Of a stretch of 64,000 nucleotides of DNA, positions 2,999 through 52,015 are shown piece after piece (the first letter of the stretch is position 1; each line of letters begins with the position of its first letter). Location: assembly GCA_009377525.1 (NCBI GenBank), contig WHTW01000019.1:1-64000 (forward strand). The letters are read 5' to 3'. A program made the translations under genes and the position numbers. The notes under the pieces were generated by a model. It had not been told where the DNA came from. It did not search any database and saw only the letters and a program-made list of their open reading frames with translations. The DNA is from Rhodospirillales bacterium (GTDB lineage Bacteria; Pseudomonadota; Alphaproteobacteria; Reyranellales; Reyranellaceae).

Positions 2999-3057
2999 CG
3001 GTCACCCACGGGCACCGGCGGTTGAAAGCGTGAGCCCGCCCCCCGAAGAGGTCGCTC

Positions 3058-3262
3058 AACACACCGCTGCAACGCCCAGGACGGGAACGTCAGGTCGTCT
3101 TGCGCGCGGCTGCCGCCAATGCGTTCGTTTTCCCCACGAGCGGGGCAAGCGCCTCGATCGCACCGGAAAAATCCTCGCGTTCGAACGCCGCGAATCCGCG
3201 CGCCAGTGCAGGAAGGTAGGAGCCCGACGGGTAACGCCCCTCTCGCGCCAGCGCCTGCCTAC
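3058..3262 (-). pseudogene. Truncated, internally deleted copy of the TPR-protein C-terminus
   Basis: The DNA here is nearly identical to two blocks of the TPR gene at 5544-6869. 3060-3090 matches about 5570-5600, and 3091-3258 matches about 5690-5858 (same LARGFAAFER..DFSGAIEALAPLVG reading, with GVTRRAPTFLHWRA in a shifted frame). The 90 bases between the two blocks are missing. One-base changes break the frame. It is therefore a decayed partial duplicate rather than a gene. Confidence 0.8.
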
Positions 3263-3403
3263 CGGTTCGACATCGCCCAGCACGGCGGCGCTGATCGCCG
3301 CCGGCGCCAACGTCGCGGGCATGCCGATGGCGCTCACGATGTCGAGATACGGGTGGCGAGGCTGACCTCAAGGCCACCCGGCGCGCTACAGGACATCTCC
3401 AGT

Positions 3404-4034: not shown

Positions 4035-5225
4035 ATGGCAATCAACATTTCCGGGAACGACAATCGCGAGGGCTGGCGCGTCGCCCGCGTCGCGTTCGTC
4101 GTCGCGGTGTTCGGCTGGGGCCTCGGCTTCTACGGCGTCGCGGTCTACGTCCCGGCGCTGCACGAGGCGCACGGCTGGCCGATCGCCACCGTCTCGACAG
4201 CGGTGACGGCACACTACCTGGTGGGCGCCATGCTGATCGCGTGCCTGCCGGCCGCCTACCGTCGCCTGGGCGTCGCGCGCGTGACGGTGATCGGTGCGGC
4301 CGTGGCCGCCTGCGGTGCGATGGCGTGGGCCACTGCGCGCGAGCCGTGGCAACTCGTGCCCGCGGTGCTGTTGAGCGGCGCCGGCTGGTCGGCGATGAGC
4401 GGCGCGGCGCTGAATGCGATGGTGGCACCGTGGTTCGACCGTGACCGGCCGCGTGCGATGGGCTTCGCCTTCAATGGCGCGAGTGCCGGCGGCCTTCTCC
4501 TGACGCCGCTCTGGGCCGTGCTCATCGGTCATCTCGGCCTTCCGGGCGCTGCGTTCTTGATGGCGGCCGCAACGGCGCTCGCCGTCTGCCCGCTTGCGGC
4601 GCGGTTTCTCGCGCCGCCTCCCTGCGCCGCTATGCCCGCCGTCGCCGCGCGCCCGTCTTCGCGCCGCGCGCTGCTCGGCCAGCGTGCCTTCCTCACTTTG
4701 TCGCTTGCCTTCGCGCTCGGCCTGTTTGCGCAGATCGGTCTCGTCACCCACCTGATCACGCGTCTGCAGCCTCTTTTCGGCACGCAGCTTGCGGCCCTTG
4801 CGCTCAGCCTCGTCACCGTCTGCGCCATCGCCGGCCGCACGCTGCTCGGCCGCCTGATCGGCGACCGCGACCGCCGGCGGATCGCCGCCGGCAATCTGCT
4901 GCTGCAGGCGGCCGGCACCGTGCTGCTGATGCTGGGCGATGACGCGGCGCCGCTCATTGCCGGCTGCGTGCTGTTCGGGCTGGGCTTCGGCAACCTGACC
5001 TCCTTGCCGCCGCTGATCGCGCAACGCGACTTCCCCCCGGCCGACGTCGGCACGGTGGTGGCGCTCGTGACGGCGATCAACCAGGCGGTCTTTGCCCTGG
5101 CCCCGGCGTCTCTCGGTTGGCTGCGGGAGCAGAGCGGCGACTATGCGCTGTCGTTCCTCGTCGCGGCTATGGCGCAGCTCACCGCCGCCGGCATCCTCAC
5201 GCTCCGCGTGATACCGCGCCGCTGA
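4035..5225 (+). CDS. MFS transporter, 12 predicted membrane helices
   Basis: This 396-aa protein is hydrophobic along its length, with roughly twelve segments. An MFS loop motif occurs between helices 2 and 3 (AAYRRLGVARVTVIG), and a charged central loop lies near residue 200 (APPPCAAMPAVAARPSSRR). The family moves small solutes by proton-coupled symport or antiport. The start is taken as ATG 4035 (MAINISGNDNREGW); the frame extends to 3963 but would overlap the divergent adaA-like gene. The substrate is unknown. The shared promoter region with an alkylation-stress regulator might mean co-regulation, but this is inference. Confidence 0.85.
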   Translation: MAINISGNDNREGWRVARVAFVVAVFGWGLGFYGVAVYVPALHEAHGWPIATVSTAVTAHYLVGAMLIACLPAAYRRLGVARVTVIGAAVAACGAMAWATAREPWQLVPAVLLSGAGWSAMSGAALNAMVAPWFDRDRPRAMGFAFNGASAGGLLLTPLWAVLIGHLGLPGAAFLMAAATALAVCPLAARFLAPPPCAAMPAVAARPSSRRALLGQRAFLTLSLAFALGLFAQIGLVTHLITRLQPLFGTQLAALALSLVTVCAIAGRTLLGRLIGDRDRRRIAAGNLLLQAAGTVLLMLGDDAAPLIAGCVLFGLGFGNLTSLPPLIAQRDFPPADVGTVVALVTAINQAVFALAPASLGWLREQSGDYALSFLVAAMAQLTAAGILTLRVIPRR

Positions 5226-5299
5226 TCACGCCGCGGGCTATCGCGCGCCAGCGACTTCATTGAACTCTTGCGGCGCCCTGCTCTTCAGCGCGCGCCCGT

Positions 5300-5530
5300 G
5301 CTTGTGCGGCGTAGTCAAAGAGCCGCCACGGCCAGGCTCCAGGGCTCGGCCACCTCGCCGACCTCGACCCGCACCATGAGCGCGATGTCGCGCGCAGCCT
5401 CGGGCAGCGCACTGACGACCAGCGCGGCATCCTGGGCAAGTGCCGCCACATGCACGCGATGGATGAACCACGGCGCGGCGGGCAGCTCGAGGCGCCTGGC
5501 CAGCGACACCATCATCGGCTCAGCCCTCTC
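5300..5530 (-). pseudogene. pcaB-like fragment A (middle part of the gene)
   Basis: Read on the minus strand, this stretch gives MVSLARRLELPAAPWF, then VAALAQDAALVVSALPEAARDI and GGSLTTPHK. It aligns with residues about 210-283 of the intact pcaB at 35833-37137, including the start of the fumarase-superfamily signature (GGSSTMPHK). Homology stops abruptly near 5300, just where fragment B (15922-16018, plus strand) would continue. Frame breaks in the AEP segment show it is dead. Confidence 0.85.
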
Positions 5531-5543
5531 GCCCGGCGTCGGC

Positions 5544-6869
5544 TCAGGCGGTCAGCGGGATCGCTCCACACACCGCCGCAACGCCCAGGACGGGAACGCC
5601 GGAAGCGCCCGGCCTCCTCATGCCAAGCAGATGCCGCGCTTCGCTCGGCCGATTGGCGTTGAGGTAGGCCCTCAACAGGGTGAACTCGATCAGGTCGTGC
5701 TGCGCGCGGCTGCCGCCAATGCGTTCGTTTTCCCCGACGAGCGGGGCAAGCGCCTCGATCGCACCGGAAAAATCCCCGCGTTCGAACGCCGCGAACCCGC
5801 GCGCCAGGGCGGGAAGGTAAGAGCCCGACGGGTAACGCCCCTCTCGCGCCAAGGCCTCGATCTGGCGAGCCCGCGTGTCGGGTGCCACCTCATCGCGCAT
5901 GACGGCCTCAGCCAGGATGACATGCAGATCGGCGAGCCCATTGCCCGGCCGCGGCAGCGAGCGGTTCGCATAGTCATGCAACGCACGCCAGGCCGTGGCG
6001 TCGCGCGGATGACCCGCGAGCTCGGACCGCCACAGGAAGGCGGCTCCATCGGAGACTTTCTGTTGGGGTCCGCCGCTGTGCCGGTCGAGCGCGAGGGCGT
6101 CGTGATAGAGCCGCAACGCTTCAGGCCAATTGCCGGCCTGGATCTCGAAAAGCGAGAGATGCCAGCTCAGATGGCCATGGAAAAAGCCTTCCTGCGGATA
6201 GGTGGCGAGCCACGCGGAGAGAAAGGTGCGCGCCGTCTCGAGGTCGCCGCTCTCGTAGAAGATATGAGCGAAGCCATGGGCACCATGCGCATTGTTCGGG
6301 TTCGCGGCCACGGATCGCTCGATCTTCGCCCGGGCCGGCCCAAGCTGCCCATCCTCGGACAGGGCCATGGCGTGATAGGAGACGAACCAGAAATCGTCGC
6401 CATAGTGCGGGGCCAGGCTGTCCATAAAGGCCGCGATCTGGCGCTTCTGGCCGATGCGGCCGCACCCGCCAATCAGGCCGTTGGGGTTCGCCGCACTGGC
6501 GACGACCAGCGCGTCGCGCGGCCACGCCGCCAGATGGGCATACAAGGCCGCGATCGCGGCCTCGGTCTCGCCCGCGAACACGAGCTCGAAGAAGGCGATG
6601 TGACTGGCCTCGCGCTCGGACACATCCGAAGCCAGGCCCTTGGCTGCCGCCAGGGCCAGCCGTGCCGCCCCGACGTCGCCTTGCCTCAGCAGGACCAGCG
6701 CCTTGCCGGCGTGGGCCAGGGCAAAACCGGGATCGGCGGCAATGGCCCGGTCATAGGCCTCGAGTGCACCGGGGTAGAAAGTCAGCGCCAGACCGGAGGC
6801 CTGAACGTAGGCATCCCGCGCGGCAGCCGACGCCGTCGTCAAGGCAAGGTCGTAGCGATCCTTCAGCAT
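5544..6869 (-). CDS. Tetratricopeptide-repeat protein (TTC38-like)
   Basis: A 441-aa soluble protein built from helical repeats. 'ALEAYDRAIAADPGFALAHAGKALVLL' (about 54-80), 'GQLGPARAKIERSVAANPNNAHGAHGFAHIF' and 'GNWPEALRLYHDALALD' are TPR-type units. The order and the HGFAHIFYESGD and GHLSWHLSLFEI stretches resemble the TTC38 family, whose role is unknown. No signal peptide is present. The start at ATG 6869 begins MLKDRYDLALTTAS, and the next gene upstream is 394 bases away, so it is probably its own transcription unit. A broken copy of its 3' end sits at 3058-3262. Confidence 0.75.
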   Translation of the reverse strand: MLKDRYDLALTTASAAARDAYVQASGLALTFYPGALEAYDRAIAADPGFALAHAGKALVLLRQGDVGAARLALAAAKGLASDVSEREASHIAFFELVFAGETEAAIAALYAHLAAWPRDALVVASAANPNGLIGGCGRIGQKRQIAAFMDSLAPHYGDDFWFVSYHAMALSEDGQLGPARAKIERSVAANPNNAHGAHGFAHIFYESGDLETARTFLSAWLATYPQEGFFHGHLSWHLSLFEIQAGNWPEALRLYHDALALDRHSGGPQQKVSDGAAFLWRSELAGHPRDATAWRALHDYANRSLPRPGNGLADLHVILAEAVMRDEVAPDTRARQIEALAREGRYPSGSYLPALARGFAAFERGDFSGAIEALAPLVGENERIGGSRAQHDLIEFTLLRAYLNANRPSEARHLLGMRRPGASGVPVLGVAAVCGAIPLTA

Positions 6870-7263
6870 GCCAAACCCTCACCGCCTCGAGCGACAGGGC
6901 GGCCGTTCTGTCGGACGCACTCCTTCGTTCGCGCGGCCGAGCGACGTTATCATCGATCGCTCGCGGTCGCGAGGTCGCAGAGCGCCACCGCCGGACGGAT
7001 CGGCATCTACTGGCGGTCCCGCCGACTACGGGCGCGGCGCCGGGCACACCTACATCGCCTGGTGCCTGGCCGCCGTCAGCCTGCCGGTCCTGGCCGGCTA
7101 TCTGTTTGACATGACCCGCGCGCACAGTACGGCGGTGCCGATCCCGCCGGCGCCAACGTCACCGAATTCCCATCGACTATGACCCTTGTCGATGGAGCCA
7201 CTACGCGTTCGGCTCGCATGTCATAGTTCATTTGCCGGATCCGTTGATGCCCCAGAAATCGCT
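6870..7263. other. Intergenic region with a possible membrane-helix remnant
   Basis: No complete gene is seen. On the plus strand, 7050-7130 reads YIAWCLAAVSLPVLAGYLF, a convincing hydrophobic helix, inside a frame lacking a proper start. This may be the tail of a lost membrane protein. The promoter of the TPR gene should lie near 6870-6950. Confidence 0.35.
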
Positions 7264-7887
7264 TCAAGCGGAGCCGTTCCCAATAGCGGCGGCTTTCCTC
7301 GGACCAGCCGGCGCGAACTTGATGGCGAGGCTGATCCGCGCCTCAAGGCAGAGCTTCGATGGCGCACCGCCGCGATGGCGGATCATGCCGTCGAACACGA
7401 CCATGCGTCCGGGCCGCGGTGCAATGCACAAGGCATAGGACGGGGTGCCATCGGGATAAAGGATGAGTTCTCCGGCCCAATCCTCGTCCCAGCGTGAATT
7501 GATGAAGGCGAGCGCAGTCCATCCTTCGCCATCCTCGTGCGCGAACTGGAAATCCCCGTGCAGATTGAAATTCGCGTAGATCCGATAGATTGAGCCGTAG
7601 GCAATTTGCCGTTCCCGCAGGAAGGCACGGGCAGTGCTCGTCAGCAAAGAGAGCGCCGGATGGCCGTCCCACTCCCCTCGGTCGAACTCGTGCTTGAGGT
7701 GACGGACGTGCCCAGTGTCCGGGCGATCCGAATCGCTGAGCGTCATTGGCAGGCTGGAAAAATGCGCGTGGATGGCCCCGGCGGCGGCATCGTCGACAAC
7801 CCCGTCGAGTATGAAGAAGCGCCGCTGGCTCGCTCCGATGCGGATTGCTTCATAAGCGATCCGTCCTGGCTTCCGTCGTCCGCGCAC
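7264..7887 (-). CDS. 2OG-Fe(II) dioxygenase (last gene of a three-gene operon)
   Basis: The 207-aa protein shows the double-stranded beta-helix signature of 2-oxoglutarate/Fe(II) oxygenases. HxD is His117-Glu-Asp119 (FQFAHEDGEGW), followed by a TALAFINSRWDEDWAGELILYPD core, distal His171 (MIRHRGGAP) and the 2OG-binding Arg184 (LEARISLAIKF). It belongs to the prolyl-4-hydroxylase-like/2OG-FeII_Oxy_3 group, which hydroxylates protein side chains or small molecules. It starts nine bases after the stop of the 414-aa gene, so the two are co-transcribed. The substrate is unknown; the lysine-rich 78-aa protein at the operon head is a candidate (inference). Confidence 0.85.
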   Translation of the reverse strand: MRGRRKPGRIAYEAIRIGASQRRFFILDGVVDDAAAGAIHAHFSSLPMTLSDSDRPDTGHVRHLKHEFDRGEWDGHPALSLLTSTARAFLRERQIAYGSIYRIYANFNLHGDFQFAHEDGEGWTALAFINSRWDEDWAGELILYPDGTPSYALCIAPRPGRMVVFDGMIRHRGGAPSKLCLEARISLAIKFAPAGPRKAAAIGNGSA

Positions 7888-7896
7888 GGTACGGTC

Positions 7897-9141
7897 TCAG
7901 TTGTAGAGGAAGAGGTCGCGTGGCTCGGCGGCCCCTTGTGGCAGCCGCTTGATTCCTCTCAGCAGCCGGTCGCCGATCGACAGATCCTGCTCCTCGCGCA
8001 TCAGGGTGAAGACTCCCAAGGCCTCGGCGGGGAACGCCTCATAGTCGAAGCGAGCGACGTACTGGCGCAGCAGGAACTCGAAGGCTTCCTTCGGCATGCT
8101 CTTGACGGCGGCGGGCGAGACAGGCTCGCAGCGGTTGAGATTGAGGAAGCGAAAGTCCGGCGCTCGCTTGACGGGCGCCCTCCAGCTGCGCTCGGGGTCG
8201 AGGCGCGGGCCGGCCGCGCACATCTCGCCCTGTTTGACCTTGGCCCACAACCGTTCGCCGATTTCTCCGACGAGCCGCTGCTTCCATGCTTCGTCGCAGG
8301 CGATCGGCGCGTCGAGCCGCTTGTCCGAAAGCCGGATGTCGTCGGCCGACAGGTAGGCGAACCATTGCCGGCAATAGCGGCGCTGCAGCCGGCCGTAGCT
8401 CAGCTCGTGGACGATCCAGTTGTGCAGCGCCGGGCTGCGCTGGAGATCGCGCACATCGAAGCCGACGAAGACGCCGTCGCAGTAGAAGCGGGTCAGTTGG
8501 CCGAGGAAGGCTGGATGCTGGACGGCGAGCCCGGGATTGAAGCGGCGGTACTCCTCGCTCCACTCCTCGCGGTAGCTCACTGTCAGTCCCTTCTGCACGG
8601 TTCCGACCGGCACGACCTCGTTCAGGTCGATGGTCGACAGGTACCAGTAGTCGAGGCCGACGGTCGCCACGGCCTCGCTCAGGATATGGCAGAACACCAT
8701 GTCCTCGAAGTTGGCGGTGGTGATCGGGCTGCAGCCAAAGCCCAGGCCAGGCTGGAGGCGATCTATCCAGTGATAGGCCCAGCTGTGCAGGTAGTCGTGG
8801 GCGCAGAACAGCGCTTCCGGCATGAGCGCATCGCCTTCGTTGAATGGACGGGCCGAGCCGTGGCGATGGGGAAGCCAGCGGTCGAGCCGCGAATGGGTGC
8901 CGATGAACACCGCGCTGCGCAGCGGATTGAATCCATCCACGCGCGTCTCGACCGTCTCCTCGTACTTCCAGCGTGCGTCGATGCCGCGCCGGACGATGGC
9001 AATCGCCGGATCGTCGAATACCTGAGAAAGCAGCGGGATGCGCAGCAGTGACTCCGGATGGAGAGCGCCAGCATTCCCGGCTTCATCCGCCGACATCACG
9101 GCGGGCGGCAAGGGTACTTGGCGTAGCGGCGCGTGATCCAT
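7897..9141 (-). CDS. Conserved-looking 414-aa protein of unknown function
   Basis: I do not recognise this family. The protein is soluble, rich in Trp/Tyr/Arg, without signal peptide or membrane helix. Notable is CAHDYLHSWAYHW (residues 113-125), with His115, His119 and His124 spaced like a helical metal site, and a second His/Asp-rich segment (HDEx-free) is absent. Further on come FEDMVFCHILSEAVATVGLDYWYLS, then LHNWIVHELSYGRLQRRYC. It lies six bases after a lysine-rich small protein gene and nine bases before a 2OG-Fe(II) oxygenase, all on the minus strand. The spacing argues that the three work together. A second metal-dependent modifying enzyme or a binding partner are equally possible. 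Confidence 0.65.
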   Translation of the reverse strand: MDHAPLRQVPLPPAVMSADEAGNAGALHPESLLRIPLLSQVFDDPAIAIVRRGIDARWKYEETVETRVDGFNPLRSAVFIGTHSRLDRWLPHRHGSARPFNEGDALMPEALFCAHDYLHSWAYHWIDRLQPGLGFGCSPITTANFEDMVFCHILSEAVATVGLDYWYLSTIDLNEVVPVGTVQKGLTVSYREEWSEEYRRFNPGLAVQHPAFLGQLTRFYCDGVFVGFDVRDLQRSPALHNWIVHELSYGRLQRRYCRQWFAYLSADDIRLSDKRLDAPIACDEAWKQRLVGEIGERLWAKVKQGEMCAAGPRLDPERSWRAPVKRAPDFRFLNLNRCEPVSPAAVKSMPKEAFEFLLRQYVARFDYEAFPAEALGVFTLMREEQDLSIGDRLLRGIKRLPQGAAEPRDLFLYN

Positions 9142-9147
9142 GGCGGC

Positions 9148-9384
9148 CTAGAACGTAATGCTCTTCATCTCCTTGATGGTTTTCTTGATGTCCTTGTCGA
9201 CCTTCTTCAACGTCTTCTTCTCGAACTTGTCCCACTTGGCGTCGTATTTCTTCTGGGCTGACGAAGCGCTGATTCGCGCTCCCTTTCGCGTCCCAAACTT
9301 CTCCTGAATATCCGCAAGCGTGACAGTCTTCACCGCCGAACTCTTGGGGCCTCGCTTCTTTGCCGCCGCCTTCCTCATCGCCAT
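9148..9384 (-). CDS. Lysine-rich 78-aa protein heading the oxygenase operon
   Basis: The protein begins MAMRKAAAKKRGPKSSAVKT, a tail like those of histone H1-like or nucleic-acid-binding proteins. It continues with TLADIQEKFGTRKGARISASSAQKKYDAKW and ends in a charged helix with FEKKTLKKVDKDIKKTIKEM. About a third of its residues are Lys or Arg. An AGGAGG lies five bases before ATG 9384, a strong ribosome-binding site that implies high expression. It is followed after six bases by the 414-aa gene and then by the 2OG oxygenase. It could be a nucleoid-type protein or a substrate for modification; neither is shown by sequence alone. Confidence 0.75.
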   Translation of the reverse strand: MAMRKAAAKKRGPKSSAVKTVTLADIQEKFGTRKGARISASSAQKKYDAKWDKFEKKTLKKVDKDIKKTIKEMKSITF

Positions 9385-9729
9385 TGCTACCTCCTGTTAC
9401 CTGGGGACTGATGATCGGCATGCTGCAGCGAGCATGCCGCAGGATGACTGACTCTAGTGTTGGGGTGCAGCAAAGGACAGACCTGCTACGGTGAGTAGCA
9501 CCGACAGTTACACGGCTGTTACAGCCACGACAAAGGCCTCGACATATCTCGTGACTACAATTGCTCCCGATGGATTGCGACACACCGGGAAGCAAGATGA
9601 AAACAAGGGCAGCTCGATCGACATGACCTTCCATAGGATCCCCGCGCACCAAGCCCGAGCCGAGTGCGTGCGGTCGATGATCTCGTCTCTTTTGTCCTGT
9701 CTTTCCGGGCTTGGGCGACGGGTGAGGTC
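9385..9729. other. Intergenic region between divergent transcription units
   Basis: This 345-base stretch separates the minus-strand oxygenase operon from the plus-strand membrane protein. It contains the AGGAGG site at about 9390-9395 and lower-GC DNA around 9480-9600, likely holding both promoters. No RNA gene or repeat was recognised. Reading frames here are short and lack ribosome-binding sites. Confidence 0.4.
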
Positions 9730-10059
9730 GTGAGCCTTTGCGATACCGTTGGATTTCTGGCCTCGGGCCTCGTTATCGCAGCGTTCTGCATGAAGGATCT
9801 CATTCCGCTGCGGCTCACGGCATTGGCCAGTAATGTCGCCTTCCTGGCTTACGGCATTGGATTGGGCCTTGCTCCCATCTGGCTGCTGCACGCAATTCTG
9901 CTGCCGGTCAATTGCTGGCGCCTTTGGCAGCAGATATCGCAACACGGCGAAGCGGCGCCCGAGCGGTATTCACGGTGGGCTTGGACCCATCTGTCGATGG
10001 AGTGCGCCAAGCTGCGGCCTAGACGCAAAAAAACTCCCGCAATGACCCGATGGCCATGA
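9730..10059 (+). CDS. Small inner-membrane protein (YgjV/Imp-like)
   Basis: With the GTG at 9730 (GAGG five bases upstream) the product has 109 residues. It has three hydrophobic segments: [32 protein letters not shown] and [14 protein letters not shown]. The pattern GF.ASG.V..AF.MK.L.PLR..A..SN..F..YG is common in small four-helix inner-membrane proteins related to YgjV. The frame also opens at ATG 9664, but the added residues are not hydrophobic and lack a ribosome-binding site. The last 30 residues are basic. Function unknown. Confidence 0.6.
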
Positions 10060-10108
10060 TCGACGGGCCGATATTGAAGCGAGCGGATCGAACCTTGTGG
10101 AGCTTCGT

Positions 10109-10654
10109 ATGAATGTACAAGACGTCGTCTCGGATTCGCCCAGGCGCCTGGATGTGGAACTCGGACCGGCCAAGGTCATCCCGAAGCGCGTCCATGCGGA
10201 GGTCGACGGTGACTTTGTCGTCTTCCTGATAGGCATGCGCGTCAACAAGCCGTGGAAGCCGCGCAAATGGCTGCCGGTCATGCGGGCGATGCCAAAGATG
10301 CTGAAGGAACTGGAGGCTGCCCCGCCTGAGATCGGCTTCCTCGGCCACACCGGCTTGGGCAGGATCATCGTGCAGTACTGGCGTAGCTTCGATCACCTGG
10401 AGCGTTATGCCCGGGATCGCGACGCCCTGCATTGGCCGGCGTGGGTCACGTTCAACCGTCGCATGCAGGAGACACGCGGTGATGTCGGCATCTGGCATGA
10501 AACCTACAGAGTCCGTGCCGGCGACTACGAGGCGATCTATAGCGGCATGCCGCCTTTTGGTCTGGGTAAGGTTGGCCGCCTGGTTGATGCTGCCGGATCG
10601 TGCGAAAGCGCCCGGCAGCGCATGCGGGCCATGGAGCCGGTCATCCCGCGCTAG
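10109..10654 (+). CDS. DUF4188 family protein
   Basis: About 181 aa from ATG 10109 (GGAG six bases upstream); a GTG at 10097 would add four residues. The core [26 protein letters not shown], the [24 protein letters not shown] segment and [28 protein letters not shown] fit the DUF4188 family. These are small alpha/beta-barrel proteins related to monooxygenase-like or phenylacetaldoxime dehydratase folds. Several family members are annotated as monooxygenases without biochemical proof. It stands alone, tail to tail with the large regulator gene at 10712-14647. Confidence 0.8.
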
Positions 10655-10711
10655 GATTCAAGGCGACGACAACGAGCCGCGGCGCTCCCGACGGTACCAA
10701 GCACGCCGCGA

Positions 10712-13700
10712 TCATCCGTGGCCAGGTGTCAGATCCTCCATCAGGATTCTGGCTTCCTGCAGTTCCGTCATGTCCATGCCCGCCCTTTGGCGGTCGCACA
10801 CCGAGCGCAACATTGTCAGGGCTTCCCTGGCGCGCCCTTTGGACCGCTTGAGCCGGGCGAGATCACATGCGGCACGGAGCTCAAAACATGGTTCATGCTG
10901 GCGCCGTGCCAGCGCCAGCCCACTGGTCAGGAGGCCCTCGATCTCGCGCGTTGGCGCACGGCCCGATGCCAGGAGCAGGCCGGCCTTGCTGCGCAGCAAC
11001 TCGGGTTTCGCCCAGCACTCCCCGGTCTCGCTCGAGACGGCGAGTGCCTGGTCGATGGCGTGCAACGCGGCCTCGCTACGACCGGCTCTGGCGTAAGCCT
11101 CGGCTTCCAGCGCCAAGAACGTGGGCATCCACAGCCGGGCGCCACCATCCCGCCACGCGGCAACACCAGCGCACAGCGCCTCAATTCCCCGATCGACGTC
11201 GCCCCGGCATATGGCCGCCCAGCCCTGGAGAATGCGACCGCAATTCATCCAATGCGAAAAACGATGCTCGGCGCAGAGAGAAACGATCATCTCCGCACAA
11301 GAGTCGATGTCATCGGCGCGATGTTTGAAGAGGTCGATGAACGCGCGAGCATGGCAGATCGCGTAGACCAGCGTGTGCGGATGAAGCAGCTTCTCAGCGT
11401 GCTGCACCGCCTCGTTCGCCACCTGAGATGCCTGATCGACGTGGCCAAGATGCCAGAGTGTCCAGCTTCGGTAGCACAGAGCCGCGACGCCGATGTCCTG
11501 TCCGTACTGGTAGCGGAGCTGCGCATGACGCTCGCAGTCATAGAGCGCCCAAGCTTGCTCGAGATGTCGCAGCCCGGCGGTGAGTTCGCCGCTGACCATG
11601 CAGGTGGTGCCGAGCGCGCGATGCGCGACGCAGAGCGCCGCCATGTCGTCGTGTCCCTCGGCCTCCGCCATCAATTCGTTGGCTGCCGCCTTTTGCTCGA
11701 CCAGTGCTCCGCCGACGTAGGCGCATGCCCATAGACCATAGAGGATGGAAACCTTCTGAGCCGGGTCGGTCGAATGGTTGATGAGGGTTCGCGACCGCGA
11801 CAGGATCTCCTTGGTTTCCGCTGCCGAGTAACCGCGGGTGGCGATCATCGCTTGGCCAAGCATGACCTCCATCTCGAGCTCTTGCCGGGCGCGGGCCGGA
11901 CACTCAGGGAGCAATCGCAGCAATTGAAGCGCGCGCGTCAGATGCGAAATGGCCTCGTCATTCGCCGACCGCTCCATCACGCGCTGCGCGGCTTTTTGCA
12001 GGTAGGCGATGGCCCGCCCGGTGAGACCCGCCTCTGCGAGGTGGTGAGCGATGACCTCGGGTTGCGTCTGGACGATCTCGGGGAAACGCTGCTCGAGGGC
12101 GCAGGCGATGCGTTCATGAATGTGTTGCCGCTTGGCGCGCACCAGCATGGCGAAGGCCGCTTCCTGAACGAGCGCATGCTTGAAAATGTAAGTCGAGTCC
12201 GGCGGCGCGCCTCGTACGAAAATCAATTCGAGGCCCACGAGCTGGGCAAGACCAGATCGCAGCACGTCCTCGGGCATCGAAGCGACGGCGGCAAGCAGGC
12301 CATAGGAAAATTCCCGACCGATGGCGCTTCCAATCTGCGCGATCTCCTTCGCCGGACCGAGCCTGTCGAGTCGCGCCGTCAGGGAGTCGGCGAGCGTCAT
12401 GGGTATGGCCAAAGGCGGCGCCGCGCCGGTCGCCACGTATCGGCCGCCGATATCGTGGAGCAGCCCGGATTCGAGCACCGCCTTGGTCAACTCCTCAATG
12501 AACAAGGGGATGCCGTCGGTCTTGTCGATGATCTGCTCACAGATGTCGGCGGGTACTTGCTTGCCCCCGGCCACATCCATGATCATGGTCCGGGTCTGGT
12601 CGCGCCCCAGGCGATTGATCCGGATCATGCTGACGTGTGACTGCTCGAGCCAGAGCGTGAAGAACTCCGGCCTGAAACTGACCAGGACAAGGCCCGAAGC
12701 CGACTGAATCGATGCGATGAGCCGACCGAATAGTTCCAGGGTACTGGAATCGATCCAGTGCGCGTCGGCAAGCTTTATGACCAAAGGTTGATTGCGGGCA
12801 AGACTGACAAGGTAACGGATCAGCGCTGCGACCGTGAGGTCCTTTTGTCGTTGGGGCGTCAGCTCGGGCGCCGCGTAACGACCGCCGGTCGGGATCGACA
12901 GCAACGCGGCATACAATGCAGTGTCCGCGAGCAATGCGGCATCGACTTGCGAAAGCAACGCTTCCAGCTTGTCCAGCTTCGTGTCGGGCGAATCCTCTCG
13001 TTCGAAGCGGGCCGCCTGTTCAAGTTGCTTGATGACCGGATGAAACGGGCTGCCGCTGTGATGAGGAGAACACTGGTAGCGAACCGTGATGTGCGGCTGC
13101 GTTCGGATGGCATCCAGGAAGCCCTCACAAACCCGCGACTTGCCGATGCCGGCTTCGCCGCACACCAGCGCGGCCTGCCCTCTGCCGGTCTTGGCCTGAT
13201 CCCAGAGCGACGATAGCTGCTGCAGTTCGCGCTCCCGGCCGACGAAGGCGGTCAGTCGCTCCGTCAGCCTGGCGTCAAATCGGCTCCTGGCCGCTCGCCT
13301 GCCGACGACCCGGTAAGCTGCCACCGATCCGGAAGCTCCCGCCACGGAATGCGGCGTCTCGATGCAGTCAAACGCTCCGGCGACAAGTTTGCGCGTCGAA
13401 GCGGTCACGACGACTGAGTTTGCAGGCGCGCTGATCTGCAGTCGGGCAGCAATGGCCGTGGCCTCTCCAACCACCTGCTGCTCCCCGCCAATCAGGACCA
13501 GGCCGGTCGCAATGCCGACCTGCGCTTGCAGCGGCTTTCCCGAAGGAGACCGGAGCTGGCCAACCTTTGCCACAAGATCGATCCCGGCTTGCACGGCGCG
13601 TTCGGCGTCATCCTCGTGGGCGTGCGGATATCCGAACAAGGCGAGAGCCTCTCCGCCCATCCATCGACAAACCGATCCGCCCATCTGCGCGATAGCGCTC

Positions 13701-14647
13701 GTGCAGGCCCCCTGGAACCTCTGGATGACACCGCCGACGTCCTCCAGATCGAAAGCTGCCGCGAGCGACGATGCGTCGAGAAGTCCAGCACACAGCACCG
13801 TCAGCTGTCGCTTCTCTGGGTCGAGCGGCGGCAAGGCAATGCCCCCGCCGGACGACTTCGCGGCAATCGAATCGCCGGGCCCCGAGCTGTCGGGCGGCGT
13901 CGCTGTCGTTCGATTTTCCGGCTCGGCGAACGGCAACTGCCTTTCGCTTTCTTCGCTCACACGCGGTCGCACGGTGAACTTATAACCGGCACCCAACACG
14001 GTGGTGATGAATCGGGGCGCCTTCGCGTTCGGCTCGATCTTGCGGCGCAACCGGCCGACGAGCACGTCGACGCTCCGTTCATAGGGTTCCAGGCTGTCTC
14101 CGGCGAGTGTGCGACGCAATTGGTCGCGTGACAGGACACGTTGGGGATTGCGAACGAATGCTGCCAGCAGGGCAAACTCCGAGCGCGTCAAACGCACTTC
14201 GCACCCGCCGGCATCGACGAATGTGTGGCCGGCAAGATCGAGCCGGCAGCCCTCGAAACAGAGGACCGCCGGTCTGTCTTCGTCCCCGGCTGCCGGCAAC
14301 TCCATGAGCTGGGCGACACGGGCCAGCAGTTCCTTTTCATCCAGTGGCAGCGAGAGAAACGCGTCGACGGCGGGGGATACGCAACCAGGTCGAAGAACCT
14401 CATGGGCCTCGTCCGCCAGCACGATCAATCTCTGAACCGCTGCGCGCAGCTGCCGCGCCAGTGCCACGGCGGACCGGTCGGCGCCGGCCGCCAGGATTGC
14501 GGCGTCGATATTCCCATCCGCAATGAGCTTCAGTGCCCGCTTTTCATCCGCGGCAAGCTCAACAGCATAGCCACCCAACTGCAGTGCACGGGCTATTTGT
14601 CCACGGAGTTCCAGGTCATGCGCAACAATCAGAACAGTCTTACGCAT
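10712..14647 (-). CDS. 1311-aa REC-like/OmpR-HTH/cyclase-like/AAA-TPR regulator
   Basis: Domains in order: receiver-like (1-115), OmpR/PhoB winged helix (about 125-228, ending LGAGYKFTV), class III cyclase-like (about 280-425), AAA-type ATPase with Walker A GEAGIGKS (497-504) and Walker B-like VIKLADAHWIDSS, then a TPR-rich C-terminus (about 850-1300). Both signalling domains look degenerate. The receiver has Ala53 where the phospho-Asp should be and lacks the Lys. The cyclase has CAGLL for FADL and GGEALALF for GDGLLAxF, so both metal-binding Asp are lost. It is probably an ATP-switched transcription regulator of the LAL/MalT type that uses these folds for protein contacts. The ATG at 14647 begins MRKTVLIVAHD. 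It stands alone. Confidence 0.85.
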   Translation of the reverse strand: MRKTVLIVAHDLELRGQIARALQLGGYAVELAADEKRALKLIADGNIDAAILAAGADRSAVALARQLRAAVQRLIVLADEAHEVLRPGCVSPAVDAFLSLPLDEKELLARVAQLMELPAAGDEDRPAVLCFEGCRLDLAGHTFVDAGGCEVRLTRSEFALLAAFVRNPQRVLSRDQLRRTLAGDSLEPYERSVDVLVGRLRRKIEPNAKAPRFITTVLGAGYKFTVRPRVSEESERQLPFAEPENRTTATPPDSSGPGDSIAAKSSGGGIALPPLDPEKRQLTVLCAGLLDASSLAAAFDLEDVGGVIQRFQGACTSAIAQMGGSVCRWMGGEALALFGYPHAHEDDAERAVQAGIDLVAKVGQLRSPSGKPLQAQVGIATGLVLIGGEQQVVGEATAIAARLQISAPANSVVVTASTRKLVAGAFDCIETPHSVAGASGSVAAYRVVGRRAARSRFDARLTERLTAFVGRERELQQLSSLWDQAKTGRGQAALVCGEAGIGKSRVCEGFLDAIRTQPHITVRYQCSPHHSGSPFHPVIKQLEQAARFEREDSPDTKLDKLEALLSQVDAALLADTALYAALLSIPTGGRYAAPELTPQRQKDLTVAALIRYLVSLARNQPLVIKLADAHWIDSSTLELFGRLIASIQSASGLVLVSFRPEFFTLWLEQSHVSMIRINRLGRDQTRTMIMDVAGGKQVPADICEQIIDKTDGIPLFIEELTKAVLESGLLHDIGGRYVATGAAPPLAIPMTLADSLTARLDRLGPAKEIAQIGSAIGREFSYGLLAAVASMPEDVLRSGLAQLVGLELIFVRGAPPDSTYIFKHALVQEAAFAMLVRAKRQHIHERIACALEQRFPEIVQTQPEVIAHHLAEAGLTGRAIAYLQKAAQRVMERSANDEAISHLTRALQLLRLLPECPARARQELEMEVMLGQAMIATRGYSAAETKEILSRSRTLINHSTDPAQKVSILYGLWACAYVGGALVEQKAAANELMAEAEGHDDMAALCVAHRALGTTCMVSGELTAGLRHLEQAWALYDCERHAQLRYQYGQDIGVAALCYRSWTLWHLGHVDQASQVANEAVQHAEKLLHPHTLVYAICHARAFIDLFKHRADDIDSCAEMIVSLCAEHRFSHWMNCGRILQGWAAICRGDVDRGIEALCAGVAAWRDGGARLWMPTFLALEAEAYARAGRSEAALHAIDQALAVSSETGECWAKPELLRSKAGLLLASGRAPTREIEGLLTSGLALARRQHEPCFELRAACDLARLKRSKGRAREALTMLRSVCDRQRAGMDMTELQEARILMEDLTPGHG

Positions 14648-14990
14648 ACAGTCTCCAAGCCAACTCAGCGTTCAGTGTTGTCAGGCAGGACATCAGGTGC
14701 GGAGGCCGCTCGACGCGGGTGCTCGTGAACGTCCTCCCGCATGACAGAATCGGCGCATTCATTATCTCCCGGCAGCGGAAACAGACTGTGTTGTTTGCCA
14801 CACACCATGGACCGGGATCGCAGTTGCGGGACCTGGCCTCGCCGCTCCGGTGGCGACAAAACGACCAAAGCCACAACGAAAGCAGCTGTCGTTGACGTAG
14901 GCAAAGCGTCCACCCACCTCAACGCCGTCCTGTTCATGACGAACATCCCTCAAGTCGTGCACGCCACTTCTCGTGCTTGAGGCTGCTAGA

Positions 14991-15030
14991 GCACATTCCG
15001 TCCGGCTGGAATCAGCCGAACGGAATGTGC
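14991..15030. repeat. CATTCCGTTCGGCTG palindrome, copy 1
   Basis: The arms GCACATTCCGTCCGGCTG and CAGCCGAACGGAATGTGC flank the loop GAAT, with one mismatch in 18. Further copies lie at 21735-21767 and 47117-47152. All three are intergenic. It could act as a terminator or a REP-like element. Confidence 0.8.
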
Positions 15031-15469
15031 CCTTTGGAACAACATTCCCCGTGCGCTCTAGCGCCGACCAAGCTTCTCGGTCGCGTCTCAAATATCGCTG
15101 TGTTGTTCGATGATAATCGCGTTTGCCGCTGAGGCCTGTCGCGAATAATGCATATCTATTGCAACGGCAACAGCGATCGTCGCTGATCGATCATCAAGGA
15201 AACTCGTGAAAGCGATTGTTCTCGCGGCGTTCGCTTCCGAAGCGCCATCGAGCGCCGTGCGATAGAGGCGGTCCGCTGGGGCATGACCGCGGGTCTTCGT
15301 ACAGGTCGCGTTCGACGCAGAGGCGTTGAACGCAGCTGTCAAGGATCGATCTTTGCCAAACTCGTGGTCTTTTGGTGTTCAGTGCATATTGGGACTCGAC
15401 CCAAGCGCTGCCGCCCCCAAGTCTGGCTTGAGCCCTTCAAACCCGAAGCCCTTTTTCACCGATCTGCTT

Positions 15470-15585
15470 TCGGGTGTTGATCCGGGGGTCAACTTCAAAA
15501 ATCGTCGTAAACCCAATAACATCAATGCTATATGGCGGGCCACGATGGACGATGATGAGCACTATGTTTACGCTATGGCCCTCTA
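15470..15585 (+). repeat. Relic repeat encoding a DDDEHYVYAMAL tail, copy 1
   Basis: The DNA reads SGVDPGVNFKNRR, then WRATMDDDEHYVYAMAL and a stop. The same end occurs at 33040-33153 (WRATNDDDEHYVYAIAL) and partly at 22250-22290 (DENYVYAIALYDPPK). Copies 1 and 2 also share GTTGATCCGGG upstream. This points to the preserved 3' end of a repeated, now broken gene. Confidence 0.6.
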
Positions 15586-15592
15586 ACCGACG

Positions 15593-15919
15593 TCAGTCCG
15601 CAAGGCCGATGACGAAGGCCAGGGCGATATTGAGACGCCCGATGTCGGCGTCGGTCAGGTGCCCGACCAATTGTCCGATCCGTTCCCGTCGAACCGTAAC
15701 TGGCTTGTCGGCCATGACTTGGGAACGGATGCGCAGGCCATTCTTTTCATTCGGTTCGATCGTAACGCGAAAGTCCGGAGCATCGACGATGTCGGATGTC
15801 ATCTGGCAAATCACGACCGATGGATGGGTTTCGGGAAAAGCGTCGGTCTGCACGACAACTGCCGGCCGCGGCTTCCCGTAATCGCCAGCCGCCGCGACAA
15901 CAACATCGCCGCGCTTCAT
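15593..15919 (-). CDS. PemK/MazF-family toxin without visible antitoxin
   Basis: The 108-aa protein begins MKRGDVVVAAAGDYGKPRPAVVVQ and goes on with TDAFPETHPSVVICQMTSD, the SH3-like barrel start of MazF/PemK endoribonucleases, which cut mRNA at short motifs. The conserved GD at the start of strand 1, PRPAVVVQ and the T/S segment after 'VICQMTSD' are present. Length fits the family. The antitoxin gene normally precedes and overlaps the toxin. Here the bases directly before the ATG (15920 onward) are instead a pcaB fragment on the other strand, so the antitoxin is missing locally. Either the toxin is weak or silent, or an antitoxin acts in trans. Confidence 0.85.
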   Translation of the reverse strand: MKRGDVVVAAAGDYGKPRPAVVVQTDAFPETHPSVVICQMTSDIVDAPDFRVTIEPNEKNGLRIRSQVMADKPVTVRRERIGQLVGHLTDADIGRLNIALAFVIGLAD

Positions 15920-15921
15920 CG

Positions 15922-16018
15922 TCCGTCGGCGCCGCGCTCGTCCTGTCGGCCGCCGCCCGCGCGCCGATGCAGGCCGCCACCATCGTCGCCGCCTTGGCCC
16001 AGGAGCACGAGCGCGCGC
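15922..16018 (+). pseudogene. pcaB-like fragment B (next part of the gene)
   Basis: On the plus strand the DNA reads VGAALVLSAAARAPMQAATIVAALAQEHERALG, split here as VGAALVLSAAARAPMQ plus AATIVAALAQEHERALG. It matches residues about 287-320 of the intact pcaB. It begins within seven bases of where fragment A (5300-5530, minus strand) stops in the gene. It runs out near 16018, 50 bases before the stop of the ABC ATPase gene. Confidence 0.85.
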
Positions 16019-16070
16019 TGGGACCGGAGGCTCGGCCGCCTCGCCGGCGGGGACAGGAGCCTGAAACGGC

Positions 16071-17029
16071 TCAGCCGGTCAGCGGGAAGTGGCAGGCCAC
16101 CTGGTGGCCCGTCGCGATCTCCCTTGGCGGCGGCACCTCGGCGGCGCAGCGCGCCTCGGCCCGCGGGCAGCGCGTGCGGAAGCGGCAGCCGCTGGGCGGA
16201 TCCATCGGCGACGGCAGGTCGGAGGCGGTGAGCTGCACCTGCCTGACCGGCTGTGTCGGGTCGGGCACCGGAATCGCGCTCATCAGCGCCGCCGTGTAGG
16301 GGTGCGCCGGGGCCCGGTACAGCGTCTCCGACGGCGCCAGCTCGCAGAGCCGGCCGAGATACATCACCGCGACCCGGTCGGAGACGTTCTTCACCACCGC
16401 CAGGTCGTGCGAGATGAACAGCATGGTGAGCCCCATGCGCCCCTTCATCTCGCGCAAGAGGTTGAGGATCTGCGCCTGCACCGAGACGTCGAGCGCCGAG
16501 ACCGGCTCGTCGCAGATCAGCAGCGCCGGCTCCAGAATCAGCGCCCGGGCGATCGAGATGCGCTGGCACTGTCCGCCGGAGAACTCGTGCGGCCTCCGAT
16601 CGAGCGCCAGCGCCGGCTCGAGGCCGACCGCCTCCAGCATCGCCGCGACCCGCGGGCCGATCTGCGCCCTCGGCAGCAGGCGATTGACCCGCAACGGCGC
16701 GGCGACGATCTCGGCCACCCTGTGCCGCGGATTGAGCGAGGCGATCGGGTCCTGGAAGATCATCTGCAGCTTCGGCCGCAGGCGGCGCAGCACCGCTCCC
16801 GATTGCCTCGCGAGGTCGGTGCCCTGGAACCAGACCTCGCCGCCGGTCGGCGGCGGCAGCTGCATCAGCGCGCGCGCCGCCGACGACTTGCCGCAGCCGG
16901 ACTCGCCGACAAGCCCCAGCGTCTCGCCCTGGCGGATGTCGAAGCTGATGCCGGAGACGGCGTGCACGGTGCGCTCGTCGGGCACACGGAATTCGACGGT
17001 GAGCTCACGCACGCTCAGCAGCGGCGCGT

Positions 17030-35832: not shown

Positions 35833-37137
35833 TTACTTGCGCTTCAGCTCGGCCAGCAGCCGATCGACGAACTTAGGCGAATAGCCGAGCAGCGCCATCT
35901 CGTCCGACAGCTCCCTCTCGAGCTGCCCCAGCGCCTCGACGAACGAGCCGCCTTTCGCCAGCGCCTCCTCGACCAGCTTGCCGGCCTTCTGCTTGCCGAG
36001 CTTCTCAGCCAGCAGGAAGGTCGCGCGCTCGGCCAGCACGGCGCCTTCGGTGGCGTCCATGTTGGCCTGCATGGCGTCGGGATCGACGGTGAGGCCCTGC
36101 GCCACCTCGTCCATCGCCTGCACCGCCGATGCGAGCGTCTCGATCAGCGCCGCCAGGGTCGGCCATTCGGCCTGCCAGCCGCCCAGCGCGCGCTCGTGCT
36201 CCTGCGGGAGCGCCGCGACGATGGTGGCGGCCAGCATCGGCGCGCGGCCGGCGGCCGACAGGACCAGCGCGGCGCCGACGGGATTGCGCTTGTGCGGCAT
36301 GGTCGATGAGCCGCCGCGGCCGGGGCCCGAGGGCTCGGCCGCCTCGCCTACCTCGACCTGCATCATCAGCGAGATGTCGCGCGCGGACTTGGCCAGCGCG
36401 CCGACCACCAGGGCGGCGTCCTGCGCCAGCGCTGCCACGCGCACGCGCTGGGTGAACCAGGGGGCCGCCGGCAGCTCGAGTTTCAGGCGCTTGGCTAGCG
36501 AGACCATCACCGGCTCGGCCTTGTCACTGCTCAGGGCCGACAGGCTGCCCGAGGCGCCGCCGAACTGCACGACCTGCGTCTCCTTGAAGCTCGCCTCGAG
36601 GCGGCGCGCGGCGCGGCTGATATCCGACGCCCAGCCCGCGATCTTCTGGCCGAGCGCGATGGGCGTGGCGGGCTGCAGCAGGGTGCGGCCGAGCATGGGC
36701 GTGCGGCGGTGCTTGCGGGCCAGGTTGGCGAAGGCGCCGACGATGGCGTCGAGCTCCTTGAGGAGCGGCGGCAGCGCCTCGCCGAGCTGCAGCACCATCG
36801 CGGTGTCGATGACGTCCTGGCTGGTGGCGCCCCAGTGCACGTAGCCCGCGGCCTCGGCGTCGCGCTTGGCGACCTCGTCGGTCAGCGCCTTGACCACCGG
36901 CACGGTGAGCGTGGCGGTGTGGCGCGCGGCGTCGGCCAGCGCCACCGGATCGTAGAGCGCGGGATCGCAGGCCTTGGCGATGATCGGCGCCATGCGTTTG
37001 GGGATCAGCCCGGCCTCGGCCGCCGCCTGGGCAAGGGCGGCCTCGAAGCGCAGCATGTGGCGCAGGGTGGCGAGGTCGGAGAAGGCCTCGGCAGCGAGCG
37101 CCGAGGAGCCGAGCGCGTTGACGAGGCGCCCGGCCAT
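35833..37137 (-). CDS. pcaB: 3-carboxy-cis,cis-muconate cycloisomerase
   Basis: A 434-aa enzyme of the fumarase/aspartase superfamily that cyclises 3-carboxy-cis,cis-muconate to gamma-carboxymuconolactone, the step after protocatechuate cleavage. Visible are HWGATSQDVIDTAMVLQ (residues 101-117) and the superfamily signature GRGGSSTMPHKRNP (273-286) with the mobile-loop Ser. The start at ATG 37137 lies two bases from the pcaG stop; a longer frame to 37395 only overlaps pcaG. pcaC (decarboxylase) and pcaD are not in this window. Two scraps of a second copy occur at 5300-5530 and 15922-16018. Confidence 0.93.
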   Translation of the reverse strand: MAGRLVNALGSSALAAEAFSDLATLRHMLRFEAALAQAAAEAGLIPKRMAPIIAKACDPALYDPVALADAARHTATLTVPVVKALTDEVAKRDAEAAGYVHWGATSQDVIDTAMVLQLGEALPPLLKELDAIVGAFANLARKHRRTPMLGRTLLQPATPIALGQKIAGWASDISRAARRLEASFKETQVVQFGGASGSLSALSSDKAEPVMVSLAKRLKLELPAAPWFTQRVRVAALAQDAALVVGALAKSARDISLMMQVEVGEAAEPSGPGRGGSSTMPHKRNPVGAALVLSAAGRAPMLAATIVAALPQEHERALGGWQAEWPTLAALIETLASAVQAMDEVAQGLTVDPDAMQANMDATEGAVLAERATFLLAEKLGKQKAGKLVEEALAKGGSFVEALGQLERELSDEMALLGYSPKFVDRLLAELKRK

Positions 37138-51295: not shown

Positions 51296-52015
51296 ATGAA
51301 GTCGCCCAAGCCCACGTCCTACGACAAGCTCAAGACGGTCAGCACCGCCACGGTGGCGACGGCGCTGTTCAAGCGCGGCTTTCGCACCCAGTGCATCCAG
51401 AACGTCCATCCGATGTCGCCCAGCCAGCCGGTGCTGGTCGGCCCCGCCTTCACGCTGCGCTACATCCCGGCGCGCGAGGACCTGAACAAGCTGGACCTCT
51501 TCCGCGACCGCAGCCATCCGCAGCGCAAGGCGGTCGAGGACTGCCCGCCCGGCGCCGTCATGGTCATGGACAGCCGCAAGGACGCGCGCGCGGCCTCGGC
51601 CGGCGCGATCCTGGTGACGCGGATGATGAAGCGCGGCGTGGCCGGCGTCGTGACCGACGGCGGCTTCCGCGATTCGGCGGAGATCGCGGCTCTCGGCATT
51701 CCCGCCTACCACCAGCGCCCCAGCGCACCCACCAACCTCACGCTGCACCAGGCGATCGACATCAACGTGCCGATCGGCTGCGGCGACGCGCCGGTGTTTC
51801 CCGGCGACATCATCCTGGGCGACCAGGACGGCGTCATCGTCATCCCGGCCAACCTCTTGGACGAGATCGCCGACGAGACCTTCGAGATGACGGCCTACGA
51901 GGATTTCGTCACCGAGCAGGTGCGCGCCGGCAAGGGCATCTTCGGCCTCTATCCGGCGACCAACGAGCAGTCGCTGACCGACTTCGCGGCCTGGCGGAAA
52001 GCCAACGGGCGCTGA
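51296..52015 (+). CDS. RraA-like aldolase/decarboxylase
   Basis: From ATG 51296 the protein has 239 residues. It belongs to the RraA/4-hydroxy-4-methyl-2-oxoglutarate aldolase family. The catalytic Arg-Asp pair is in VVTDGGFRDSAEI (Arg125, Asp126), with the Mg2+ site built by this Asp and nearby loops. GCGDAPVFPGDIILGDQDGVIVIP is the family C-terminal strand set. Such enzymes cleave or decarboxylate 2-keto acids (retro-aldol or oxaloacetate decarboxylation). As last gene of the operon it could act on the product of the dehydratase. A palindrome (52018-52085) follows three bases after the stop. Confidence 0.87.
   Translation: MKSPKPTSYDKLKTVSTATVATALFKRGFRTQCIQNVHPMSPSQPVLVGPAFTLRYIPAREDLNKLDLFRDRSHPQRKAVEDCPPGAVMVMDSRKDARAASAGAILVTRMMKRGVAGVVTDGGFRDSAEIAALGIPAYHQRPSAPTNLTLHQAIDINVPIGCGDAPVFPGDIILGDQDGVIVIPANLLDEIADETFEMTAYEDFVTEQVRAGKGIFGLYPATNEQSLTDFAAWRKANGR

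Follow-up and report, generated by a model that had tools for sequence, protein, structure and literature searches.

The locus lies in a Reyranella genome of 7.35 Mb, a draft assembly of 208 contigs, on a 69.7-kb contig whose first 64 kb form the window, the whole stretch of DNA analysed. The window contains an intact pcaB, the 3-carboxy-cis,cis-muconate cycloisomerase gene (35836-37137, minus strand; TIGR02426), which is the ortholog of the gene in the relatives used for comparison, among them Reyranella soli. Pieces of a relic copy lie elsewhere in the window. Fragment A (5300-5541, minus strand) covers approximately residues 204-283 and carries a frameshift; BLASTN of the intact gene against the window recovers 5300-5525 (80% over 233 columns, E 7e-55), and alignment with relatives extends the match to 5541. 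Fragment B (15923-16022, plus strand) covers approximately residues 286-320 and was recovered by the same search (91% over 100 bases, E 8e-35). At the protein level, A matches PcaB residues 204-271 with 73% identity and B matches residues 282-320 with 82% identity. The preliminary description had placed two pcaB pieces on opposite strands, which these hits confirm, but their extents needed revision, A having been ended at 5530 and B given as 15922-16018. A carries a 1-base and a 6-base deletion and its lyase signature is altered (GSLTTPHK instead of GSSTMPHK), indicating that the relic copy was a pseudogene.

The two fragments abut in the gene. The gene end of A reads CACAAGC (PHK) and B begins CCGTCGG (PVGAAL), neighbours in pcaB; alignment with relatives places only GCAATC (six bases, the two codons for RN) between them, with the frame continuing across. 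The in-frame join claimed earlier therefore stands, with six bases lost rather than the seven (CGCAATC) first counted. The break is inside the lyase signature GSSTMPHKRNP. A 343-nt query made by joining A to B aligns with the pcaB genes of relatives in a single piece that spans the joint, the best being that of genome G014 (82% over 1-343). In a chance test, independent fragments of such sizes abutted within 8 bases, with strands and edges of the inversion type, in 0.65% of draws. A and B are thus non-overlapping, adjacent parts of one gene on opposite strands, as a single inversion would leave them. The joined query, run against 65 Reyranella genomes, found no relic of either region in any other genome, and the un-inverted order was absent from these and from 31 genomes covered by a flank search. 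An ancestor with A joined to B had been named as the support to look for; none of the relatives shows an ancestral or intermediate state.

To the right of B follow a third pcaB scrap, s, on the opposite strand, then approximately 20 bases and the end of dppF. The 24-base s (16024-16047, minus strand, as for A) corresponds to part of the A region, agrees with the G014 pcaB at 23/24 positions, and has a score unequalled among approximately 1450 random segments of the window. R (16067-16087, plus strand) comprises the 3' end and stop codon of dppF, at which dppF homology with genome G006 ends. It is the original of R' (5540-5560, plus strand), a 21-bp copy directly beside A that differs from it by one mismatch (20/21). 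A match of this quality between such short flanks occurs in approximately 0.03% of random segment pairs, and a search of the 7.35-Mb genome for the pattern found no other copy as close, the next best site having two mismatches and the rest three. In the dppF frame, R' reads PLTA followed by a stop, against PLTG and a stop. In their present orientation A-R' and s-R form direct repeats. Un-flipping A gives the order TPR gene, R', A, B, then s, R and dppF, and the strands of all pieces then agree with one inverted pair; only after un-flipping would opposite copies share the short R/R' and s matches in the manner of a fold-back. Read this way, the order would represent an inverted pair of dppF-tail/pcaB junctions in which much of one arm, at the centre, had been deleted. 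Inverted repeats at the inner breakpoints were considered and dropped, as the best match (13/21 bases) was no better than in random pairs; no inverted repeats were found at the breakpoints.

The TPR gene (5544-6869, minus strand) is intact and runs into R', which supplies its present stop codon and makes the product 8 residues longer; the ancestral stop survives in the TPR duplicate at 3052. Joined to its 5' side is the head of gene X (6982-7160, plus strand), cut at 7160, a position that is itself a junction. At the TPR/X joint the two sides overlap by 6 bases (6982-6987), probably the kind of overlap that tandem duplication leaves. A decayed duplicate of this joint occupies 3052-3358, where a TPR tail 94% identical to the intact copy is followed by the tail of X, with internal deletions. 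Approximately a dozen junctions were counted within 13 kb, and the order of X, an amidohydrolase gene, the TPR gene and pcaB varies among three loci of relatives (L091, L098 and L108); the neighbourhood is often rearranged within the genus. In a further genome (G018; locus L075, G018:C140, 271-1068) 22 bases separate gene X from the gene found after pcaB in the window, and this genome has no pcaB ortholog, pointing to another rearrangement at the same locus. A literature search on Reyranella rearrangements found no paper.

Recent copying from the window's own pcaB was considered as the source of the relic and ruled out: A shares none of the private substitutions of the gene at 35836-37137 and is without its 3-base insertion. 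It is therefore an older or foreign second copy. Second copies occur within the genus, with two full genes in G010 and C-terminal pieces in G069 and G039. In trees, A and B fall inside the group of close Reyranella pcaB genes without a firm position. A differs from the consensus by 17.8% and B by 7.9% (p 0.02), while their private changes are not significantly different (p 0.20). In functional pcaB genes, too, the region of B is slightly more conserved than that of A. A and B may derive from one allele, which the trees and the divergence neither contradict nor prove, or perhaps from two.

Between X and B lies a stretch (7161-15921) containing an oxygenase operon, a regulator and a mazF gene. 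Genes for a 78-aa lysine-rich peptide, a 414-aa protein and a FlmC-like 2OG-Fe(II) oxygenase stand in a row at 7264-9384 (minus strand), a layout that recalls, by analogy, a peptide-modification operon. The 414-aa protein (7897-9141) has no match in Pfam, NCBIfam or the PDB, and relatives are absent from 385 genomes of the class, 398 of the phylum, plasmids and viral contigs. The 1311-aa regulator (10712-14647) combines an OmpR-type receiver and DNA-binding part with a cyclase/AAA/TPR part, the latter resembling TOMM kinase/cyclase proteins and, weakly, Pycsar cyclases. At 14979-15066 is a dispersed, REP-like repeat of approximately 75 bp with a near-perfect hairpin (GCACATTCCGTCCGGCTGGAATCAGCCGAACGGAATGTGC), which recurs several times here and is spread through many Reyranella genomes. 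Last in the stretch is a full-length mazF/PemK toxin gene (15593-15919, minus strand; PF02452, E 7e-23). Its start and the beginning of fragment B are 3 bases apart, so that the upstream position is occupied by B and not by an antitoxin gene. A second possible mazF start at 51620 proved to be a chance match within an unrelated gene.

We consider it probable that an extra pcaB copy beside dppF was duplicated in inverted orientation, trimmed, and then broken and rejoined flipped. An additional pcaB copy, having become a pseudogene, would once have followed closely after dppF, in the same orientation. The dppF-tail/pcaB junction would then have been duplicated in inverted orientation, giving one arm with dppF as its cap and one with the TPR gene; part of the centre of the duplication would have been deleted. 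Later, the TPR-side arm would have broken inside the pcaB relic, between the K and P codons of PHKRNP, and rejoined flipped with the loss of six bases, so that A now faces the MFS gene and B faces mazF. From these pieces we infer the sequence of events, a stage of inverted duplication, and an end joining that did not use long homology. The inversion itself appears the best reading, resting on the A/B joint, one of the two joints that an inversion makes. The earlier claim of a single pcaB copy that was broken, with one of its halves then flipped, is in that sense the best reading too and gains independent support from s and R', although not as regards the size of the block or the missing antitoxin. 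Standing against this explanation are the lack of an intermediate in any relative, the bare reciprocal joint, the gap in divergence between A and B, the lack of inverted repeats at the breakpoints, and the direct repeats.

How large a block was flipped is a separate matter, and on block size alone the two forms below are about as likely as each other. In the first, as the preliminary description had it, 5300-15921 was flipped as one 10.6-kb block carrying the TPR gene, the oxygenase operon, the regulator and mazF, leaving the antitoxin behind. The strand geometry of A and B demands ends at 5300 and 15921 for any single inversion, so that 5299 and 15921 would once have been neighbours, and the abutment of the fragments, seldom reproduced by chance, agrees with it. 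However, the reciprocal joint 5299|15921 restores no known continuous sequence: no alignment crosses it among the loci compared, similarity to the MFS protein extends to residue 414 of 420, and nothing informative matched the 74 bases after the MFS gene. Un-inverting the block would place mazF beside these 74 bases and the end of the MFS gene. A resemblance to an antitoxin C-terminus at 5226-5299, noticed by hand reading, was dropped after profile tests (p 0.37 and 0.27), and no antitoxin remnant was found at 5200-5299; the proposal that the inversion explains the missing antitoxin accordingly fails. Nor is 7170-15600 seen elsewhere in the genus. The possibility that relatives carry an ortholog of the 7-16 kb block was considered and rejected, as only paralogous regulator pieces and the dispersed repeat match among 60 other Reyranella genomes. 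With the reciprocal joint unsupported and 7160 a junction, inversion of the whole block can be entertained only tentatively.

The cut in X at 7160 and the absence of 7170-15600 from relatives make a shorter inversion plus an insertion about as good an account as the 10.6-kb inversion. Here approximately 5300-7160 (1.9 kb; A, the TPR gene and the head of X) would have been inverted beside B, and the 8.8-kb stretch 7161-15921 inserted. Its lower G+C content (62.0% against 65.8% for the window) is in keeping with this. The account requires two events, however, and neither 7160 nor 15921 showed the ends of an insertion element or a target duplication; we regard it, too, as a possibility on the doubtful side. 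A similarly speculative extension of the preferred explanation, inverted duplication followed by flipping, is that the region keeps the stages of a replication-based fold-back in a bacterial chromosome, namely inverted duplication, which would have set the 21-bp dppF-end copy and a piece of pcaB at the TPR/dppF joint, a trimmed centre and resolution by inversion.

The present direct orientation of A-R' and s-R also makes it possible that no large inversion occurred, and that a piece spanning A to R was duplicated directly to both sides, with decay and, in the right copy, an independent flip of the 100 bp of B. Other direct duplicates lie nearby (TPR/X), but A and B would then abut to within six bases by a coincidence of the 0.65% class and extra breaks are needed, and we think this unlikely. 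Independent insertion of two unrelated pcaB fragments, or an assembly chimera, is more improbable still: A and B diverge unequally and the draft assembly has its dozen or so junctions in a short span, but the A/B abutment and the R/R'/s links speak against it, and the pieces are 80-94% like their counterparts and non-identical, so that read mixing or repeat collapse is not their origin.

What the locus displays is ordinary genome decay, and no new biological system follows from it. It does illustrate how much of an old rearrangement stays readable in the remains of genes: a shared source and a flip are the parts that survive testing. A small, testable by-product is the full-length mazF without its antitoxin. 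It resembles known PemK/MazF toxins in being a full-length gene of that family with the toxin domain (PF02452), and differs from its nearest relatives, in which a MazE-like antitoxin overlaps the toxin start, in having no overlapping or upstream antitoxin; elsewhere the genome encodes another mazF, accompanied by a full MazE-like antitoxin (G000:C201:20273-20596).

Two known kinds of rearrangement offer comparisons. In yeast, loss of one palindrome arm is known from inverted amplicons (PMC4689423). Inverted duplication with asymmetric arm deletion shares with the present locus, once A is un-flipped, two opposite dppF-tail/pcaB junctions of which one is shortened; here, in another kingdom, the event would be old and read from relics, with only the 21-bp and 24-bp matches surviving. 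The other is the pseudogene split by a chromosomal inversion. The present locus differs in that one of the two expected joints can be checked and no sister strain shows the ancestor; it shares the opposite-strand, abutting halves of one gene with a few bases lost, and the split pcaB relic is best read as a scar left by a DNA inversion of an ordinary kind, within a region that has seen much rearrangement.
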